From positions 1 to 58,527 of the forward strand of contig WQTU01000135.1 of assembly GCA_009786125.1 (NCBI GenBank): a stretch of 58,527 nt of DNA, read 5' to 3'. The number at the start of each line of letters is the position of its first letter. Position 1 is the stretch's first letter. Source of the stretch: Spirochaetota bacterium (GTDB taxonomy: Bacteria; Spirochaetota; Spirochaetia; CADAEX01). The notes below the pieces were generated by a model. The model was not told the origin of the DNA and ran no database searches. It saw nothing but the letters and a program-made list of their open reading frames with translations. Both the position numbers and the translations under genes were made by a program. This document shows positions 44,893 through 57,670 of the stretch, in pieces.

Positions 44893-44913
44893 ATTTCGTC
44901 AGGAACTTGGGAA

Positions 44914-45065
44914 CAGCTGATTTATTCAATCGAGAATAAATTGCGCAGCATCCCGAACTTGTTCGGGGCTGCATTACCTTATTTCCGAATGAAGCGGGCG
45001 TGCTTGCACGCACATTACCGAGCGAATAAGGAAACGCAGCTTTGCTGCGGTATCCTTTTTAAGTG
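44914..45065. repeat. R1 partial copy fused to an R2-type hairpin, inverted orientation
   Basis: The complement carries the R1 hairpin-3 core (TTTATTCAATCGAGAATAAA at 44920-44940), then GCAGC..CCCGAAC..GTTCGGG..GCTGC, then GCATTACCTTA, and continues as an R2 module (45000-45065): TGCGTGC-AA-GCACGC in TTCGCTCGGTAATG...CCGCTTCATTCGG and a second hairpin CCGCAGC-AAA-GCTGCGG. It fills the gap between dus and creD-like genes (44893-45164), where I see no coding feature. Confidence 0.8.
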
Positions 45066-46923: not shown

Positions 46924-46962
46924 GGAAGTGCTGATTAAATTTAACTCTAATCAGCTATTTCC
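46924..46962. repeat. R1 hairpin 1 alone (copy 4)
   Basis: GGAAGTGCTGATTA / TAATCAGCTATTTCC around AATTTAACTC, differing from copy 1's loop by one base. It is upstream of the secreted-protein start and beside the R2 element that follows at 46986. The outer arm pairs are imperfect here. Confidence 0.8.
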
Positions 46963-46985
46963 TAATACTAATATACTTTTATAAT

Positions 46986-47154
46986 AAAGGGTATTATACC
47001 GCAGGGCAAGCCCTGCACCCACCGCCTACGGCGGTTTGCCACGACAAGCCGCGGGGTACGCGTACGCGACCCTTTTTGTTCCTCATCGCTCGATCATGCG
47101 AAAGCTTAGCTTTCGCGCGATTCTCGCTTATTCGTCCAATAACTTACACATCTT
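46986..47154. repeat. R2 multi-hairpin element, copy 1
   Basis: AAAGGGT and ACCCTTT close a region with GCAGGGC..GCCCTGC, ACCGC..GCGGT and the palindrome GTACGCGTAC. Then CTCATCGCTCGATCATG-(CGAAAGC TTA GCTTTCG)-CGCGATTCTCGCTTATTCG makes a second hairpin module. Copy 2 at 50297-50494 shares the order with different arms. It is notably more GC-rich than the surrounding genes. No coding feature is present. Confidence 0.82.
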
Positions 47155-48913: not shown

Positions 48914-50293
48914 ATGACACGATCAATCCCAACACGAATTTACTTAAACGAAGATGAGATGCCCAAATATTGGTATAATCTTAGAGCGGAGATGAAGGAA
49001 AAGCCGGACCCTATTTTACATCCGGGAACTTTAAAGCCGGTTGTCCACGCTGATATGGAACCGGTTTTCTGCAAAGAAGCAGTAAAACAGGAGCTTGACG
49101 ATAATACAAGACTTATTCCAATCCCCGAAGGGATTCAGGATTTTTACCGCGCATACCGGCCTTCGGCATTAATCCGCGCGTATTATCTGGAAAAAGAGCT
49201 GGGAACCCCGGCAGAAATTTACTACAAATTCGAAGGAACCAATACTTCCGGAAGCCATAAACTTAACTCTGCGGGACCGCAGGCTTTTTACGCAAAGCAG
49301 GAGGGAATCCAGAGTCTTACTACAGAAACCGGCGCAGGTCAATGGGGAACAGCTTTGTCTATGGCATGTGGTTTTTACGGGCTTGATTTAACTGTATATA
49401 TGGTAAGGGTTAGCTCGGAGCAAAAACCCTACCGCAAAGCAGTAATGGAAACATACGGCGCAAAAGTTATTCCTTCGCCATCGAACACTACAGAGGCCGG
49501 CCGCAAGATTCTGGCGAGCGACCCAAATACCGGCGGCTCTCTTGGCTGCGCAATATCTGAGGCTATTGAAACTGCTGTCAAGACCGACAAGTGTCGTTAT
49601 GTGCTTGGAAGCGTACTTAACCACGTAGCGCTGCATCAGTCTATAATAGGACTGGAAACCAAAACCGCTTTGGACAAATATGGAATAAAGCCGGACATTA
49701 TTATAGCTTGTGCCGGCGGCGGTTCCAATCTTGCCGGGCTCATTGCTCCATTTATGGGAGAAAAACTTACCGGCAAATCCAATGCGCGATTTATTGCTGT
49801 GGAACCTGCATCCTGCCCAACGCTTACCCGAGGGCGTTATGTTTATGACTTTGGGGACAGCGCGCAGACAACCCCGCTCTTGCGTATGTACACTTTGGGC
49901 GGCAGCTTTATGCCTTCCAAAAATCATGCAGGCGGGCTGCGTTACCACGGCATGAGTCCTATTGTGAGCAAGCTTTTTCACGACGGACATCTTGAAGCGC
50001 GTTCAGAGAATCAGACTGATATTTTTGATGCAGCCATACGCTTTATGAAAACCGAAGGAATTTTGCCGGCGCCTGAATCTGCTCATGCAATAAAAGTTGC
50101 CATAGACGAAGCCCTGGAATGTAAAAAATCAGGAGAAAAAAAAGTTATTGTCTTTGGACTTAGCGGCACAGGTTATTTTGATCTCTCTGCTTACATGGCC
50201 TATAACGCAAAAACTCTTACTGATATGGTTCCTTCAGACGAGGATCTGGAACGCGGCTTTGCTTCTATACCGAACATACCGCAGAATAAATAG
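48914..50293 (+). CDS. trpB: Tryptophan synthase beta chain-like protein, TrpB2 type
   Basis: This is the TrpB2 (type 2) clade: about 459 aa, with the longer N-terminus MTRSIPTRIYLNEDEMPKYWYNLRAEMKEKPDPILHPGTLKPV and PLP Lys in the TSGSHKLNSA block. Glycine-rich phosphate-binding CAGGGSNLAGL and the KNHAGGLRYHGMSPI block are also type-2. TrpB2 usually works without TrpA, taking free indole or related donors, and can also scavenge indole. ATG at 48914 follows AAGGAGG. A second TrpB (type 1) is at 54520. Confidence 0.93.
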   Translation: MTRSIPTRIYLNEDEMPKYWYNLRAEMKEKPDPILHPGTLKPVVHADMEPVFCKEAVKQELDDNTRLIPIPEGIQDFYRAYRPSALIRAYYLEKELGTPAEIYYKFEGTNTSGSHKLNSAGPQAFYAKQEGIQSLTTETGAGQWGTALSMACGFYGLDLTVYMVRVSSEQKPYRKAVMETYGAKVIPSPSNTTEAGRKILASDPNTGGSLGCAISEAIETAVKTDKCRYVLGSVLNHVALHQSIIGLETKTALDKYGIKPDIIIACAGGGSNLAGLIAPFMGEKLTGKSNARFIAVEPASCPTLTRGRYVYDFGDSAQTTPLLRMYTLGGSFMPSKNHAGGLRYHGMSPIVSKLFHDGHLEARSENQTDIFDAAIRFMKTEGILPAPESAHAIKVAIDEALECKKSGEKKVIVFGLSGTGYFDLSAYMAYNAKTLTDMVPSDEDLERGFASIPNIPQNK

Positions 50294-50296
50294 AAT

Positions 50297-50494
50297 AAAA
50301 GGTATTACGTGCAAAGCACGTATCGCGACATCCGTGTCGCTGCGCCGGGCGTGGTGTCCATGCAGCAGTGCACCCCGCACTGCTGGCGCGTGCTCCGCTG
50401 CAAGCAGCGGGGTACGCGACTCTTTTGTTAGCCACCTCGCTAGGTTATGTGCAAGCCAGGCTTGCCCGCAACCCTCGCTTCGATGGCTAATAAC
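50297..50494. repeat. R2 multi-hairpin element, copy 2 (nested hairpin array)
   Basis: AAAAGG..TCTTTT closes an array of perfect hairpins: ACGTGC-AAA-GCACGT, GCGACA-TCCG-TGTCGC, GCAGCAGTGC-ACCCC-GCACTGCTGG and CGCTGC-AA-GCAGCG. A second module follows: GTTAGCCA...TGGCTAATAAC around CAAGC-CAGG-CTTG. GC-rich against a low-GC background. It starts 4 bp past the trpB2 stop, and with the following 160 bp forms the intergenic region before the permease. Confidence 0.85.
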
Positions 50495-50609
50495 GTAATC
50501 TGCCTGGAGCATAAGGCATAAACCGAGTATTCCATAACAATCATTCAAAATTCAATCATCATATTGTTTTTTGATGGCAATAGAAAAAAATGCTCGTTAG
50601 AAAAAACTA

Positions 50610-50633
50610 ATTATTATTATTATTATTATTATT
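50610..50633 (+). repeat. (ATT)8 trinucleotide repeat upstream of the permease
   Basis: Eight perfect ATT copies lie 24 bp before the ATG at 50658 and 11 bp before its Shine-Dalgarno. Change in copy number would alter leader or promoter spacing by three bases each, so this could tune, though not frame-shift, expression. No overlap with coding sequence. Confidence 0.85.
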
Positions 50634-50657
50634 GAAAAAATTTTGGAGAAACTAGAG

Positions 50658-52073
50658 ATGCCGAAAAAAATAAAAATCTCTTTATTAGGATGTGCATTAT
50701 TGCTTTTTTTTGCTGTTATTATAATGGTGGCAAAGCCTTTTTCAGAAAACATGAGCGAGACAGCTCATTTCATGCTGGGCGGAATCATAGTTGCATTAGG
50801 CATATGGATTTTTAAACCTTTTAATCTGCCTTACGCAGTAGGCGGATTATTTTTGGCTATGTTTGCCTTGATTCTCGGTCTTGCGCCAGCAGTTGTGTTT
50901 TCCGGGTTTTCACAACCAGCAGTATGGACGTTAATTCCGGCACTTTTCTTTGGTTATACACTGCAAAAAACCGGACTGGGGAAAAGGATCGCCTTTGAAA
51001 TTATTAAATTGTTCAAACCTTCCTATGGAAGCCTTGTTTTGGCATTGGTCTTGATAGGTATTGTATTAAGCATATTAACCCCGTCTATCACTGTGCGTGT
51101 GGCTATTATCATTCCCATAGCTTTGCAATGCTGCGAGTTATGTAAACTTGAAAAAAGGTCTAAAGGCAATTCACTGATTCTTTTGACGGCATTTGCTATG
51201 GCTCTTATTCCCGGCTCAGGCTGGTTATCCGGGCTTCTCAGCGGACCAATTATGCAAAGTATGTTTGAAAATGCGGGTATGGAGAACATTCTCACATTCA
51301 GAAGTTGGTTCGACATATTGTTTCTGCCAATGATGCTTGTAACCGCAATTGTTGCGGTTGGCGGTCTGATTTTATTAAGACCGAGTATACCAATTTCAAA
51401 AAATATAATCGACGAAATTAAAGCGCGGCCAACTGAAAAAATCAGCCGGCATGAATGCATAACTGCACTTGTACTTAGTGGTGTATTTGTAATGTTTTTA
51501 ACAAGCAGTTTGCACGGCATCCCTGATGTGGCGGTGTGTTTGGCAGCAGTATTTATATTTTATATTTCCGGTGTGCTGGAATCCAAAGATTTTAATACAG
51601 GGGTCAATTGGGATTTAGTAATTTTTATCGGCATTGCAATAAGTTTGGGGCCAATATTTTTTGAAACAGGCATTTCACAATGGCTTGCAGGAATAATAGT
51701 ACCTGCAATAAGTCCTATTACAGGTAATCCGTGGGTATTCGTTTTTGTAATTACAACAATTATGTTCTTGTGGAGATTTGTAGATGTAGCGATTTTTATT
51801 CCTACCATGGCGATTGTAATCCCTATTCTCCCGGACATTCAAGCAGAACATCAAATTCATCCGCTAATTTGGGTGGCTGTTCTCGCCATGGCATCAAATG
51901 CATTTTTCATGACGTATCAGAACATATGGGCCATGATGAGCCGCTCCATGGCAGGAGACAGAGCGTGGGAAAATGAGCACCTGAGTAAATATGGCGTTAT
52001 ATATTTTGCAGCATGTATGATTGCGCTAACGGTTGCAATTCCCATGTGGATCAATGCCGGATTATTTGGATAA
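50658..52073 (+). CDS. DASS/SLC13-type anion (carboxylate) permease
   Basis: ATG at 50658 has GGAG nine bases upstream and is preferred to the track's TTG at 50643. The 471 aa protein has about 12 TM helices, with GSGWLSGLLSGP and ASNAFFMTYQN at positions where DASS/SLC13 proteins hold their SNT-like substrate loops, and TPSITVRVAIIIPIA in the first half. The substrate is unknown; di- or monocarboxylates are usual. It lies between trpB2 and trpD-C-F-B-A, so an aromatic acid (anthranilate-like) uptake role is conceivable but unproven. Confidence 0.85.
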   Translation: MPKKIKISLLGCALLLFFAVIIMVAKPFSENMSETAHFMLGGIIVALGIWIFKPFNLPYAVGGLFLAMFALILGLAPAVVFSGFSQPAVWTLIPALFFGYTLQKTGLGKRIAFEIIKLFKPSYGSLVLALVLIGIVLSILTPSITVRVAIIIPIALQCCELCKLEKRSKGNSLILLTAFAMALIPGSGWLSGLLSGPIMQSMFENAGMENILTFRSWFDILFLPMMLVTAIVAVGGLILLRPSIPISKNIIDEIKARPTEKISRHECITALVLSGVFVMFLTSSLHGIPDVAVCLAAVFIFYISGVLESKDFNTGVNWDLVIFIGIAISLGPIFFETGISQWLAGIIVPAISPITGNPWVFVFVITTIMFLWRFVDVAIFIPTMAIVIPILPDIQAEHQIHPLIWVAVLAMASNAFFMTYQNIWAMMSRSMAGDRAWENEHLSKYGVIYFAACMIALTVAIPMWINAGLFG

Positions 52074-52106
52074 AAAAACAAAACATAAAAATCGGGGGGT
52101 ACTAAA

Positions 52107-53129
52107 ATGATGATTAAAGAAGCAATTATTCAACTAGCGAATAAGCAAGATTTGACCTATGAAACTGCCGAAATGGTAATGAATGAGATTATGATAGGCG
52201 AAGCATCGCCGGTGCAGATGAGCGCGTACCTTACGGCTCTTAGCCTGAAAGGTGAAACTATTGATGAAATCACAGCATCGGCTTCAGGTATGCGTAAACA
52301 TTGCATACGGCTTCTGCACGACATTGATGCTTTGGAAATTGTAGGCACAGGCGGTGATGGTGCAAATACATTTAATATTTCCACGGCCGCGGCAATAATC
52401 ACAGCCGCAGCCGGAGTGCCGGTAGCGAAACACGGCAACCGCAGCGCGTCAAGCAAATGCGGAGCAGCCGATGTGTTAGAAACGCTTGGTGTAAATATCA
52501 ATCTCACGCCTGAAAAAAGTGCTAAGTTGTTAAAAGATATTGGTATTTGTTTTCTGTTTGCGCAAAACTATCACATTGCTATGAAGTATGTCTCGCCCAT
52601 TCGCCGAGAACTGGCAATACGAACAGTTTTTAACATATTGGGACCACTGACTAATCCGGCAGGCGCAAAGATGGAGTTGATGGGAGTATATGACAGCGAT
52701 TTGGTTGAACCGTTAGCGCAAGTGTTATGTAATTTGGGTGTTAAAAGCGCAATGGTGGTCCACGGCGAAGATGGCTTGGATGAAATATCATTGTGCGCAC
52801 CAACGAAGGTGTGTGAAGTTAAAAATGGCTGGACTCGCTCGTACATAATTACGCCGGAGCAATTTGGTTTTGAACGTTGCAGCAAGTTGGATTTACAGGG
52901 CGGTTCACCGTTCGAAAACGCAGAAATACTTAAAGCAATATTGCGCGGTGAAGATAGTCCGAATTATAACCATAAACGGAACGCTGTAGTCTTAAATGCT
53001 GCCGCCGCACTGTATATTTCAGGTAAGTATGAATCCATTGAAGCATCCGTTAAAGTTGCACACAATGTAATAAAAAGCGGTGCGTCAATCGCTAAGTTAA
53101 ACGAATTTATACGTTATTCAAACCAGTAA
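52107..53129 (+). CDS. trpD: Anthranilate phosphoribosyltransferase
   Basis: The 340 aa enzyme transfers ribose-5-phosphate from PRPP to anthranilate. Catalytic blocks are VGTGGDGANTFNISTAAAIITAAAGVPVAKHGNRSASSKCGAADVLETLG (PRPP/metal site), FNILGPLTNPAGA and HGEDGLDEISL. All are near consensus. It is first of the tightly packed trpD-C-F-B-A run (gaps and overlaps of a few bases). No trpE or trpG precedes it in the window. Confidence 0.97.
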   Translation: MMIKEAIIQLANKQDLTYETAEMVMNEIMIGEASPVQMSAYLTALSLKGETIDEITASASGMRKHCIRLLHDIDALEIVGTGGDGANTFNISTAAAIITAAAGVPVAKHGNRSASSKCGAADVLETLGVNINLTPEKSAKLLKDIGICFLFAQNYHIAMKYVSPIRRELAIRTVFNILGPLTNPAGAKMELMGVYDSDLVEPLAQVLCNLGVKSAMVVHGEDGLDEISLCAPTKVCEVKNGWTRSYIITPEQFGFERCSKLDLQGGSPFENAEILKAILRGEDSPNYNHKRNAVVLNAAAALYISGKYESIEASVKVAHNVIKSGASIAKLNEFIRYSNQ

Positions 53130-53146
53130 AAAAGGAAGTGAGCCAA

Positions 53147-53941
53147 TTGAACATATTGCATGAAATAGCGGAACGCACAAAAGAAAGGGTCGAAATGCAA
53201 AAAAAGATGCTGCCTTCGTCACAAATTATTGAATTAGCGCAAGCGATAGGCGGCAACAGCTTTCTTTTTGAAGATGCGCTAAAAACCGATGATATTGCCT
53301 TTATTTGCGAAATAAAAAAGGCATCACCCTCAAAGGGAGTGATTGCCGAGGACTTTCCCTATGTGCAAATTGCGCGGGAGTACGAAGCTGCGGGGGCGGC
53401 GGCGATTTCTGTATTAACCGAGCCTTTTTATTTTAAAGGTCACGATAAATATTTGCGTGAAATTGCCGACGAAGTATCAATTCCATTGCTGCGCAAGGAT
53501 TTTACCGTTGACAGCTATATGATTTATGAGGCGAAATTATTAGGTGCAAGCGCAGTTTTGCTGATTTGTACACTCCTTGATTTTGACACACTTGCGGAGT
53601 ATATAGCTATTGCCCACAGGATCGGACTTTCTGCACTTGTGGAAGCGCATAATGAAAACGAAGTTGATATGGCTGTAAAAGCAGGTGCAAGAATTATCGG
53701 CATTAATAACAGGGATTTAAAGACGTTTGAAATTGATATGACATTGAGCGAAAAACTAAAACTACTTGTGCCTTCAAACATAATTTTTGTTTCAGAAAGC
53801 GGCATTAAAACACCAGAAGATGTAACAAAGTTGCGTGAAATAAATGCAGATGCTGTTTTAATTGGCGAAACAATAATGCAAAGCAACGATAAATACGGTG
53901 CAATACTGCGTTTGCGGGGTGATAACATTGACAAAAGTTAA
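53147..53941 (+). CDS. trpC: Indole-3-glycerol phosphate synthase
   Basis: TTG at 53147 is preferred to the GTG at 53138 because AAGGAAGTGAG is then at proper distance; product about 264 aa beginning (M)NILHEIAERTKERV. Motifs: FICEIKKASPSKGVIAEDFPY (first beta strand, Lys), SVLTEPFYFKGHDKYL, LLRKDFTVD, IIGINNRDLKTFEID and FVSESGI, matching IGPS. It closes the indole ring from CdRP in tryptophan synthesis. Confidence 0.95.
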   Translation: MNILHEIAERTKERVEMQKKMLPSSQIIELAQAIGGNSFLFEDALKTDDIAFICEIKKASPSKGVIAEDFPYVQIAREYEAAGAAAISVLTEPFYFKGHDKYLREIADEVSIPLLRKDFTVDSYMIYEAKLLGASAVLLICTLLDFDTLAEYIAIAHRIGLSALVEAHNENEVDMAVKAGARIIGINNRDLKTFEIDMTLSEKLKLLVPSNIIFVSESGIKTPEDVTKLREINADAVLIGETIMQSNDKYGAILRLRGDNIDKS

Positions 53942-54527
53942 AATTTGCGGGCTAACACGATTATGCGATGTAGATGCTGTAAATATTGAAAAACCAGATT
54001 ATGCAGGATTCGTGTTTGCAAACAGCCGCCGCAGAGTTACATCCGCGCAGGCGATGGAGCTTAGAAGTAAACTGGCAAATGAAATAATCTCGGTGGGAGT
54101 GTTCGTTAACGAATCGATTGAGAATATTTTGCCTTTAGTGCAAAATGGCGTTATCGAAATGATTCAGCTTCATGGTAAAGAGAATGAAGAATATATAGAA
54201 AGGCTAAAAAAATTGACAGATAAACCTATTATCAAAGCTATCTCGGTTCTAAACGCCGGGGATGTGCAAAAATGGGCATTAACCTCTGCTGATTACCTCT
54301 TACTTGATAACAAAGACGGCGGCACAGGTCAGGCATTTGATTGGAGTTTAATTGGCGAAATAGGTAAGCCTTATTTTTTAGCTGGCGGACTGGATGTGAA
54401 TAACGTTGTAAATGCTATAAGCCAAACAACGCCTTTTGCTGCAGATACCAGCAGCGGCGTAGAAACAGATGGGTTAAAAGACCCGTGGAAAATAAAAGAA
54501 TTTATCAGGAGGGTTAAACATGGGTAA
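53928..54527 (+). CDS. trpF: Phosphoribosylanthranilate isomerase
   Basis: The start is TTG at 53928, with GGGGTGA five bases upstream, giving (M)[15 protein letters not shown]; the track start 10 codons earlier has no ribosome binding site. KICGL (catalytic Cys) and [23 protein letters not shown] are conserved, and the closing [23 protein letters not shown] holds the phosphate loop. About 199 aa is normal. It overlaps trpC by 14 bases and trpB by 8. Confidence 0.95.
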
Positions 54528-55707
54528 GAAAAAAGGGCGATTTGGTGAATATGGCGGTCAGTATATTCCTGAAACCTTAATGAGTGCCGTGCAAGACTTG
54601 GAGAAGTCGTATCTGCTGTATAAAGATGATGCGATTTTTCAAAAGGAATTTATGGATTTGCTGAAGAACTACGCCGGCAGACCGTCTTTACTATATTATG
54701 CCGAAAAAATGACTGCCGATCTCGGTGGAGCAAAAATCTACTTGAAGCGCGAAGATTTGAATCATACAGGTTCACATAAAATCAACAACGTGCTGGGGCA
54801 AGCTTTACTTGCGAAAAAGATGGGTAAAACTCGCATAATCGCCGAAACAGGCGCAGGGCAGCATGGCGTAGCAACTGCAACAGCCGCAACGTTGATGGAT
54901 ATGGAATGTGAAATTTTCATGGGCAAGGAAGATACCGAAAGGCAAGCCCTTAACGTGTATAGAATGGAGCTTCTTGGCGCAAAAGTCAACACAGTAACAA
55001 GCGGTACAATGACGCTGAAGGATGCCGTTAATGAAACCATGCGAGAATGGGTTTCAAGAATAAACGATACACATTATATTCTTGGCTCAATAGTTGGTCC
55101 TCATCCGTTCCCAATGATGGTTCGTGATTTTCAGCGAGTAATCAGCAAGGAGTTAAAGGAACAAATACTACAGGCAGAGGGAAAGCTTCCCGATACTGTA
55201 ATTGCATGTGTAGGCGGCGGCAGCAACGCAATTGGCGCATTTTATGAATTTATAAACGATGATACTGTGCAACTGATAGGCTGCGAAGCCGCCGGGCTTG
55301 GTGTTAAAAACCCCAAAAATGCAGCTACCATTGCAAACGGTAAAGCCGGCATTTTTCATGGAATGAAAACATACTTCTGCCAAGATGACTATGGTCAAAT
55401 TGCGCCTGTATATTCCATTTCCGCAGGGCTTGATTATCCGGGCATAGGTCCCGAGCACGCATATCTTTCTGATACAAAACGTGCTGTTTACGTTCCGGTT
55501 ACGGATGCGGAAGCCGTGGATGCGTTCGAATATTTATCGCGGACAGAGGGCGTTATTCCTGCAATAGAAAGTGCGCACGCAGTAGCTTATGCGAAAAAAA
55601 TTGCACCTAAAATGAAAAAAGACCAAATTATTGTTGTAAATCTATCAGGCAGAGGCGATAAAGACGTTGCATCAATTGCAAGATATAAGGGGGTAAATAT
55701 TACATGA
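54520..55707 (+). CDS. trpB: Tryptophan synthase beta chain (TrpB1)
   Basis: The 395 aa PLP enzyme makes tryptophan from indole and serine together with TrpA. The PLP Lys block is [41 protein letters not shown], and the phosphate-binding loop is [12 protein letters not shown]. It begins [19 protein letters not shown], standard for type 1. The ATG follows GGAGGG and overlaps trpF by 8 bases. It partners trpA directly downstream (4-bp overlap). Confidence 0.97.
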
Positions 55708-56489
55708 GTAATCGAATAGAAAATGTGTTTTCCGAATTAAAAAGAAATGGAAAAAAGGCACTCATTACGTTTATTACAGGCGGCGACCCGGATATTGAAG
55801 TAACGGGAAAACTTGTTTTGGCAATGGAAGCAGCAGGAGCCGACATAATTGAAATAGGCATCCCTTTTTCCGACCCGGTTGCCGAGGGCATTGTTATACA
55901 AGGAGCCAATGCTCGCGCTCTCGCAGGAGGATGTACTGTTGACAAGCTGTTTGATATGGTAAAAAGGCTTCGGGAAAAAACAAACATACCGTTATTGTTT
56001 ATGACCTACGCTAATCCAATATACGCGTACGGCAAAGAACGATTTATGGCAAAGTGTAAAGAAGTAGGTATTGACGGAATTATCGTCCCCGATGTGCCGT
56101 TTGAAGAAAAAGACGAATTTGAAAATGAGTGTACCCGTTACGGTGTATGTCTAATTTCATTGATTGCGCCTACATCCGGGGAACGAGCTGAAAAAATTGC
56201 ACTTGAAGCGCAAGGCTTTCTATACTGTGTTTCATCTCTTGGTGTTACCGGAACAAGAAACGATATAAACACAAATATTGCCGAATTGATAGAGCAAGTA
56301 AAAAAGGTATCGTCAATCCCGTGTGCGGTTGGGTTTGGAATATCTACACCTAAACAAGCATGTGATATGGCATCAATATCAGACGGCGTTATCGTAGGCA
56401 GTGCAATTGTTAAATTGATTGCTGAATTTGGCAGAGATAGTATAACCCTAGTAAAAGAATTCGTTGAAAAAATCAAGAGTAGCATGTAG
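55704..56489 (+). CDS. trpA: Tryptophan synthase alpha chain
   Basis: The 261 aa TIM barrel releases indole from indoleglycerol phosphate. The catalytic Glu49 equivalent is in [14 protein letters not shown]. The Asp60 equivalent is Glu here (PVAEG in place of PLADG); I recall AEG in several Gram-positive and archaeal TrpA proteins, so activity may be kept. Other blocks: [30 protein letters not shown] and VGFGISTP. Its ATG overlaps trpB's stop (ATGA). There is no terminator hairpin I can recognise after it. Confidence 0.95.
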
Positions 56490-56589
56490 TAAATCATGAC
56501 ATGCTCACAAAGTATGTTAGGCGAAAAAAAGCGAGATAATTTTCAAAAAACGCATCCATGTACAATGAGCCAAAGAAAAGGTTAAAATT

Positions 56590-57417
56590 CTATTTTGATA
56601 TGTTCTCACTAAGCCACTTCAAAGCACCAGATACATTCTGCCAGACTTCGCCTGCCATGTATCTGTATGCATCAGCCTCGCTGGCACGACCTGGTGAATA
56701 TCCGCCAAACATTTTTTCTGCTTGCAATTCAGGCACATATTTCTTTTTTGGATTCAATAGAAATTCGGCCACATGAGGGTTTGCAATTATACCCTTTTTT
56801 AATGCATTTTTTGCTTTTACTTTATCATTTTTTTTAAAATGTAATAATGTTTTACTATACAACATAAAAGCAGAATTTTCTGGATAATCAGTAAGTATTT
56901 TCTCTGCTGGTTCGAGTTCATTTTCTGAAATCAACCAGTTAATAAGAATATAGCGAATACCTTGATTATCATTCGGGTTCAAAAGGAGCATCTCTTGATA
57001 CGTCTCTATAGCTTTTTTCCGATCTCCTAATGCCCAAAAAATATCTGCCAGTCCCGCCATAGCACGCATAAAAGGGCGGGTTTCTAATATTCCCCAAAAA
57101 TAACCTTTGTTTTCTTTAAAAAATTCCTTACCAAGAGCTTTTTTGCCTAATTCTATAGCTTGTGAATATAATTTTAAACATTCCTCCTTACTCTTACTTG
57201 ATTCTGCTATAATTACATAAGCATCAATACAATAAGGTGAAATACTCAAAGCTTTTTTTGCTAACGCGATCCTTTTTTTATCATTAAGCTCATCCCATGC
57301 ATCATAGACAAGTTCTTGAGCATTATGCAAATCATCCTTATTAAAAGGTGGCAGTCTATTAACTGTATCTTTTACAGTAGAATTATTAATATCTGATTGC
57401 AATTTTTTCTTTCCCAT
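56590..57417 (-). CDS. ST7-like TPR protein (275 aa)
   Basis: The start is ATG at 57417, with AGGAG seven bases upstream; the track start adds a 22-residue basic, hydrophobic tail with no ribosome binding site. TPR-like helices span most of the protein (DKKRIALAKKALSISPYCIDAYVIIAES, SAFMLYSKTLLHFKKNDKVKAKNALKKGIIANPHVAEFLLNPKKKYVPE), and the GYSPGRASEADAYRYMAGEVWQ tail is a pattern I associate with bacterial ST7-family proteins. No function is known to me. Confidence 0.8.
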   Translation of the reverse strand: MGKKKLQSDINNSTVKDTVNRLPPFNKDDLHNAQELVYDAWDELNDKKRIALAKKALSISPYCIDAYVIIAESSKSKEECLKLYSQAIELGKKALGKEFFKENKGYFWGILETRPFMRAMAGLADIFWALGDRKKAIETYQEMLLLNPNDNQGIRYILINWLISENELEPAEKILTDYPENSAFMLYSKTLLHFKKNDKVKAKNALKKGIIANPHVAEFLLNPKKKYVPELQAEKMFGGYSPGRASEADAYRYMAGEVWQNVSGALKWLSENISK

Positions 57418-57670
57418 GTTTCCACTCCTGTATATCCTAAAATATTTTGATAAGCCCCTTAAAACAAATTTTATTATAATCATTCATTGAAGGATGGGCA
57501 ATGTATCTGATTTAAATAATTCTTAAACCTCAATTATTGCCATTGCACGGGTAAAAATTTGGACATTCCATAGGGTACATCCAAGAAACTGTAAAAACAT
57601 ATTAAAATTGCCTGAGTTTACATGAGGCTCTAGATTATATAAAAGTAATTAGGCATTAGTTTCACGCTTT

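Follow-up and report, generated by a model that had tools for sequence, protein, structure and literature searches.

The array of hairpins directly behind trpB2 is very probably a composite, nested copy of short, dispersed, palindromic mobile DNA elements that have expanded in the genome that carries it. The copy lies in the window, by which we mean the whole stretch of DNA that was analysed (58,527 nt). It begins immediately 3′ of the trpB2 stop codon TAG (50291–50293) and is bounded by AATAAAAGG...AATAA, as other copies are. Its parts and two further copies in the window are listed below.

50294–50494, + strand: the composite palindromic element as a whole, H1 holding inserted modules and H2 after it; tens of matches in its own genome
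50297–50426, + strand: H1, with arms AAAAGG/TCTTTT and an expanded loop; the arms are also found in 17 other copies
50306–50322, + strand: hairpin K, TACGTGC-AAA-GCACGTA; recurs in many copies
50321–50371, + strand: module S, a double hairpin, 5′-truncated; S profile positions 7–54
50363–50385, + strand: junction hairpin CAGCAGTGC/GCACTGCTG; from the inverted-repeat search
50387–50418, + strand: hairpin C with flanks, CGCGTGCTCCGCTGC-AA-GCAGCGGGGTACGCG; recurs and covaries in other copies
50422–50494, + strand: H2 hairpin, GTTAGCC...GGCTAAT plus inner stem; covariance model R1, 86.9 bits, E 1.6e-21
46984–47143, + strand: second copy, H1 with hairpins A, B and C, then H2; R1 71.8 bits at 47071–47143, and BLAST to the library of copies
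44978–45040, − strand: third copy, shorter and H2-like; R1 40.9 bits, E 1.3e-8

The inverted repeats that a first-pass annotation had named in the array were all recovered at their coordinates, far beyond chance. The 198 nt contain five perfect hairpins, none with arms shorter than 6 nt, a number equalled by 1 of 1000 dinucleotide shuffles (mean 0.64), and the same density is reached in 2 of 590 equal-sized segments, namely the array itself and the copy of the same family near 46927–47143. Folded as RNA, the array has a minimum free energy (MFE) of −95.7 kcal/mol (z −4.5), and folded as DNA it has a z of −5.1; both folds are more stable than those of all 200 dinucleotide shuffles. The annotation had also placed the hairpins inside a single AAAAGG...TCTTTT stem. 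The two arm sequences (50297–50302 and 50421–50426) do bracket the first four hairpins, but this outer stem is weak and is missing from the predicted MFE fold. AT-rich palindromes at 44912–44945 (CTGATTTATTCAATCGAGAATAAAT) and 46925–46962 (GTGCTGATTAAATTTAACTCTAATCAGC) adjoin two of the array copies in the window; similar ones lie near other copies (L002, L020 and L040), and they are perhaps a second repeat family.

The modular anatomy is clearest in the simplest copies, which are an adjacent pair of hairpins, H1 and H2, with the general arms AAAAGG...CCTTTTG and GTTNNCC...GGNNAAT; one simple H1 reads AATAAAAGG-TATTATA-CCTTTTG, and one simple H2 is GTTTACC...GGTAAAT with the inner stem GCAAGC...GCTTGC. 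Between the same arms the H1 loop ranges from 7 to 101 nt (17 copies), and the longer loops are themselves built of hairpins. A common long form has three hairpins with conserved linkers, closed by TACC/GGTA: A (GCAGGGC-AA-GCCCTGC), a variable B, and C (CCGCTGC-AA-GCAGCGG). In the window copy the long form is rearranged and runs K, truncated S, junction hairpin, C and then H2. Its S module is 92% identical to the S query over 49 nt and includes the GCGACA/TGTCGC inverted repeat (50325–50340), the arms CGCGTGCTCCGCTGC/GCAGCGGGGTACGCG at 50387–50418 are 87% complementary, and the H2 inverted repeat TTGTTAGCCA/TGGCTAATAA spans 50425–50493 and encloses a GGTTATGTGCAAGCC/GGCTTGCCCGCAACC hairpin. 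The junction hairpin apparently arose where S meets the rearranged A/B part, judging from a comparison with the common A, B and C form.

Within the same genome, one host position occurs both with and without an inner module. In 16 copies the apical loop of H2 has 2–3 nt, whereas two copies have a 61-nt insert there that contains S. Likewise, 11 copies have a gap of 1 nt in the S loop and two have one of 25 nt, and the CTCGCTCGACCA^TGCAA site holds 2 nt in eight copies versus a 22-nt hairpin in two. An 18-nt segment has been added to the second S hairpin in one copy, and H2 units are found within other H2 units. Identical H2+S composites stand at several loci, and composites therefore appear to have spread as units. 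The change in the H1 loop may reflect short forms gaining hairpins or long forms losing them; since distant genomes also have the long composite, the series is compatible with either accretion or deletion.

The genome-wide scan for similar arrays that the annotation had proposed found many dispersed copies. Searched against its own genome (2.42 Mb in 139 contigs), the query 50294–50500 gave 62 partial matches, a fuller copy (L005) gave 49, and the 57-nt inner double hairpin S gave 41, compared with 4, 3 and 8 matches to S in three congeners. Many S copies lie at contig ends, which is to be expected of repeats in an assembly, and in a family-level search S was restricted to the genus. R1, a covariance model of H2 built from 26 copies, has at least 131 matches in the genome and 11, 12 and 16 in the three congeners, while a search of seven sister-genus genomes returned no convincing match to it. 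When 148 genomes of the class were searched with R1, G031, G087, G058 (six), G015, G018 and G040 also gave matches, and the A-B-C-H2 architecture recurs in G087, G058 and, less clearly, G018. As this architecture occurs in other families, the composite either predates the genus or moved between families. The array thus has many structural homologues elsewhere, and a unique regulator of trpB2 can be ruled out by these copies. In a genome of another family (L182, G058:C13:7500-13000), the composite occurs as two copies in inverted orientation, one on each side of a stretch with two ArsR-like regulators and an ACR3-like arsenite transporter.

Mobility, one of several roles that had been suggested for the array, is supported by the dispersed copies, by the nesting and by empty sites in congeners. 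S lies in frame in the genes for prolyl-tRNA synthetase (ProRS), an FGGY kinase, CheA, an AAA ATPase and an MBL-fold protein. Prolyl-tRNA synthetase is normally an essential, single-copy enzyme. Here the protein (G000:C19:163-1977, L109) is longer by about 40 residues, which lie between query residues 376 and 415–417 and are missing from congeners G001–G003 and from the rest of the family, and one solved bacterial ProRS has just four residues at this position. At the DNA level the segment consists of two S-like inserts of opposite orientation, about 60 and 57 nt long, and the relatives are uninterrupted. The FGGY kinase gene (G000:C136:22617-24161, L129) has a 57-nt S near the N-terminus and a second in-frame insert of 120 nt, itself a hairpin mosaic, and both are missing in the three congeners. 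No clear target-site duplication was found at these two resolved S sites. For CheA no empty site could be read, since the sequence beside the insert has diverged too far in the G001 ortholog, and no PDB relative was found that could confirm one in the MBL-fold protein. G001 also has none of the insertions on the 3′ side of rpoC and between rplL and rpoB, gene names that were inferred from the encoded peptides and gene order. A further palindromic insertion, at the presumed rplL/rpoB site (G000:C136:27669-27786), is of a different sequence type and is also missing from G001.

The stems show compensatory change. In 78 distinct copies of H2, paired cells make up 89.9% and double-change cells number 253 versus 64 in shuffles, a signal that is lost when the partners are slid; alignment A3, having been fitted to the structure, is biased towards it, and alignment A1, made without the structure, has 54 H2 double-change cells versus 15 shuffled. 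In the A, B and C hairpins the corresponding figures are 23 and 5.7. Such strong covariation, together with internal-loop motifs (CTCGCTC... and CTCTCGCT...) that are conserved also in other families, is what would be expected if 3′ untranslated regions held a functional, structured RNA that terminates transcription, protects mRNA ends or binds a protein, its copies spreading because they are useful. Copies between same-direction genes moreover favour one orientation, and the array holds a terminator-like match at 50387–50418. The orientation bias and the loop motifs could mean an RNA role. Nevertheless, the bias is a hint only: it is significant neither in this genome (13 versus 5 copies, p 0.10) nor elsewhere (10 versus 4, p 0.18), it appeared stronger under looser gene calls, and the copy in the window is oriented the minority way. 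The wobble pairs also indicate no single RNA strand: on the plus strand, A, B and C have 2 G.U versus 17 A.C cells and H2, with mostly Watson–Crick pairs, has 36 versus 52 (p 0.11), two results that agree so poorly that the assignment of an RNA strand from wobble pairs was dropped. A search of the array region against Rfam 15, at E up to 10, returned only unrelated chance matches below the gathering score, so that a known structured ncRNA was rejected and the ncRNA that the annotation had offered as one reading is not supported in that form. Finally, S within coding genes cannot act as a 3′ untranslated region, and copy number varies tenfold among congeners. A structured RNA spread for its usefulness is thus an improbable explanation of the family.

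The same stems bear on a rival account, in which template switching during replication produced the hairpins on the spot and no transposition took place. Such a process would fit the compensated pairs, among which G.U intermediates are few, and also a loop that can be AA or TT between equally oriented hairpins with no other difference (L005 versus L035), a swap consistent with arm-to-arm copying. However, the identical 57-nt S stands at unrelated loci, some of them genes with clean empty sites in relatives, and in-place synthesis cannot bring one sequence to many sites. Template switching is therefore refuted as the sole cause, and we regard an origin without transposition as very unlikely, while the process may shape stems after insertion. 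We infer that complementarity is kept mainly at the DNA level, by arm-to-arm correction, by the mobilising reaction, or by both. As for that reaction, mobilisation in trans by a RAYT (Y1 tyrosine transposase) would make the copies repeats of the REP/REPIN type, and REPINs are likewise hairpin pairs with an intergenic bias and a high copy number (PMC3116915). But Y1_Tnp (PF01797) had no match in the genome, which is 99% complete, or in the three congeners, in a search that found matches in 5 of 14 control genomes. Such mobilisation is the least credible of the explanations that we weighed.

The composite, nested mobile element that we favour can be set beside several known systems. Rickettsia palindromic elements (RPE) are short palindromic repeats with many dispersed copies, in frame within protein-coding genes (PMC10969869). 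The likeness lies in the multi-copy palindrome and the in-frame gene insertions with empty sites in relatives (ProRS and the FGGY kinase); the differences are that RPE are about 150 bp long and are described as single elements, whereas here a 57-nt S is in frame and modules are nested, a comparison made by description. The small dispersed repeats (SDR) of cyanobacteria (Elhai et al. 2008, as cited in PMC3116915) are very small, hairpin-forming and apparently mobile. They differ from the present family in organisms and sequences, and, again compared by description, it is here that a covarying multi-hairpin composite recurs across families. SDR are also known to be inserted within one another. 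Palindromic repeats of Volvox organelles (PMC2670323) and the RHE of sponge mtDNA (PMC2800124) are selfish-looking, GC-rich hairpins, single, double or multiple, without a known mobilising enzyme, and the Volvox mtDNA palindromes are limited to intergenic and intronic regions and one rRNA module (PMC2670323). These are not bacterial, and in-frame insertion in conserved proteins is not their rule. With REP/REPIN and BIME sequences the family shares short extragenic palindromes in inverted pairs at high copy number, but its genome has no RAYT match and its genes are also invaded. With MITEs it shares short, non-autonomous, dispersed elements able to fuse in frame with genes; no clear target-site duplication was seen at the two resolved S sites. 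Integron attC sites were rejected by eye, as H2 has GTT on the left and AAT or AAC on the right, the reverse of RYYYAAC...GTTRRRY. A phage origin was rejected too: a phage collection gave no match, and viral contigs do not contain an exact 23-mer of S. By analogy, the element would work as RPE and the small cyanobacterial and organellar hairpin repeats do, and it is not assigned to any of them.

In the reading that we propose, the base unit is the adjacent pair H1 + H2. The nested copies show other modules (K, A, B, C, S and entire H1+H2 units) lying within one another, and composites appear to have spread as units. The elements would spread as selfish, non-autonomous DNA, presumably through a hairpin intermediate, single-stranded or cruciform, and an enzyme, and stem complementarity would be kept by DNA-level arm-to-arm correction or by the hairpin requirement of that enzyme. 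Surviving copies would lie mostly between genes or in tolerant protein loops. More tentatively, and less probably than not, this may be a self-nesting system in which insertion is preferentially into the hairpin loops (single-stranded DNA or matching RNA) of other copies. Composites would then grow hairpin by hairpin, be passed from one bacterial family to another as units and insert in frame into genes, all by a non-RAYT class of enzyme.

At trpB2 itself, the copy lies at the spot that holds a native terminator in congeners. The trpB2 orthologs in G001–G003 are 88–89% identical and are followed by a terminator in G002 (GACTGTCAC...GTGACAGTC-TTTTTTT), a similar one in G003, and AAAAGGCTGCC...GGCAGCCTTTT in G001. 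The array is missing there, and the downstream DNA differs, with a convergent methyltransferase-like gene; because of this difference in gene order, the empty site at trpB2 is not alignable base by base. In the genome studied here, no terminator of the congener type was found after trpB2, and the array lies directly at the stop, with a permease and trp genes 3′ of it. A terminator role was considered because the native terminator is missing. The stem at 50387–50418 passes a terminator consensus scan on the + strand, which is the trpB2 strand, with the tail ACTCTTTTGT; its T run is short and lies inside the weak H1 arm. On this sequence evidence the array, as one copy of a genome-wide element, may incidentally bring about termination or stabilisation of the trpB2 transcript, and it could possibly isolate trpB2 from the permease, as the first-pass annotation had suggested. 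The permease and a trpD-C-F-B-A run occupy 50643–57483 after trpB2, an arrangement that congeners lack. The permease is 59–71% identical to gut-MAG proteins labelled Oscillospiraceae and Lachnospiraceae, which suggests horizontal gain, and the sample codes of these MAGs are ones that we take to denote termite guts. A run of ATT triplets at 50611–50632, just 5′ of the permease start, is possibly length-variable.

Bacteria and organelles commonly have small palindromic repeats, and the kind of element described here is already known; what is new is that the nesting is hierarchical, that the composite covaries and that the empty sites are clean. We read the palindromic family as selfish DNA of the RPE or SDR sort and not as a dedicated trp regulator. 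For annotation, such arrays beside operons are not to be read as dedicated regulators, and they probably break assemblies. How palindromic repeats move without a RAYT is a long-standing question, and here a single genome shows the nested forms in a graded series and has in-frame insertions in an essential tRNA synthetase, close relatives have clean empty sites, and other families carry relatives of the composite. With the graded nested series and the empty sites, target choice, nesting order and the cost of insertion thus become readable from sequence and open to testing.
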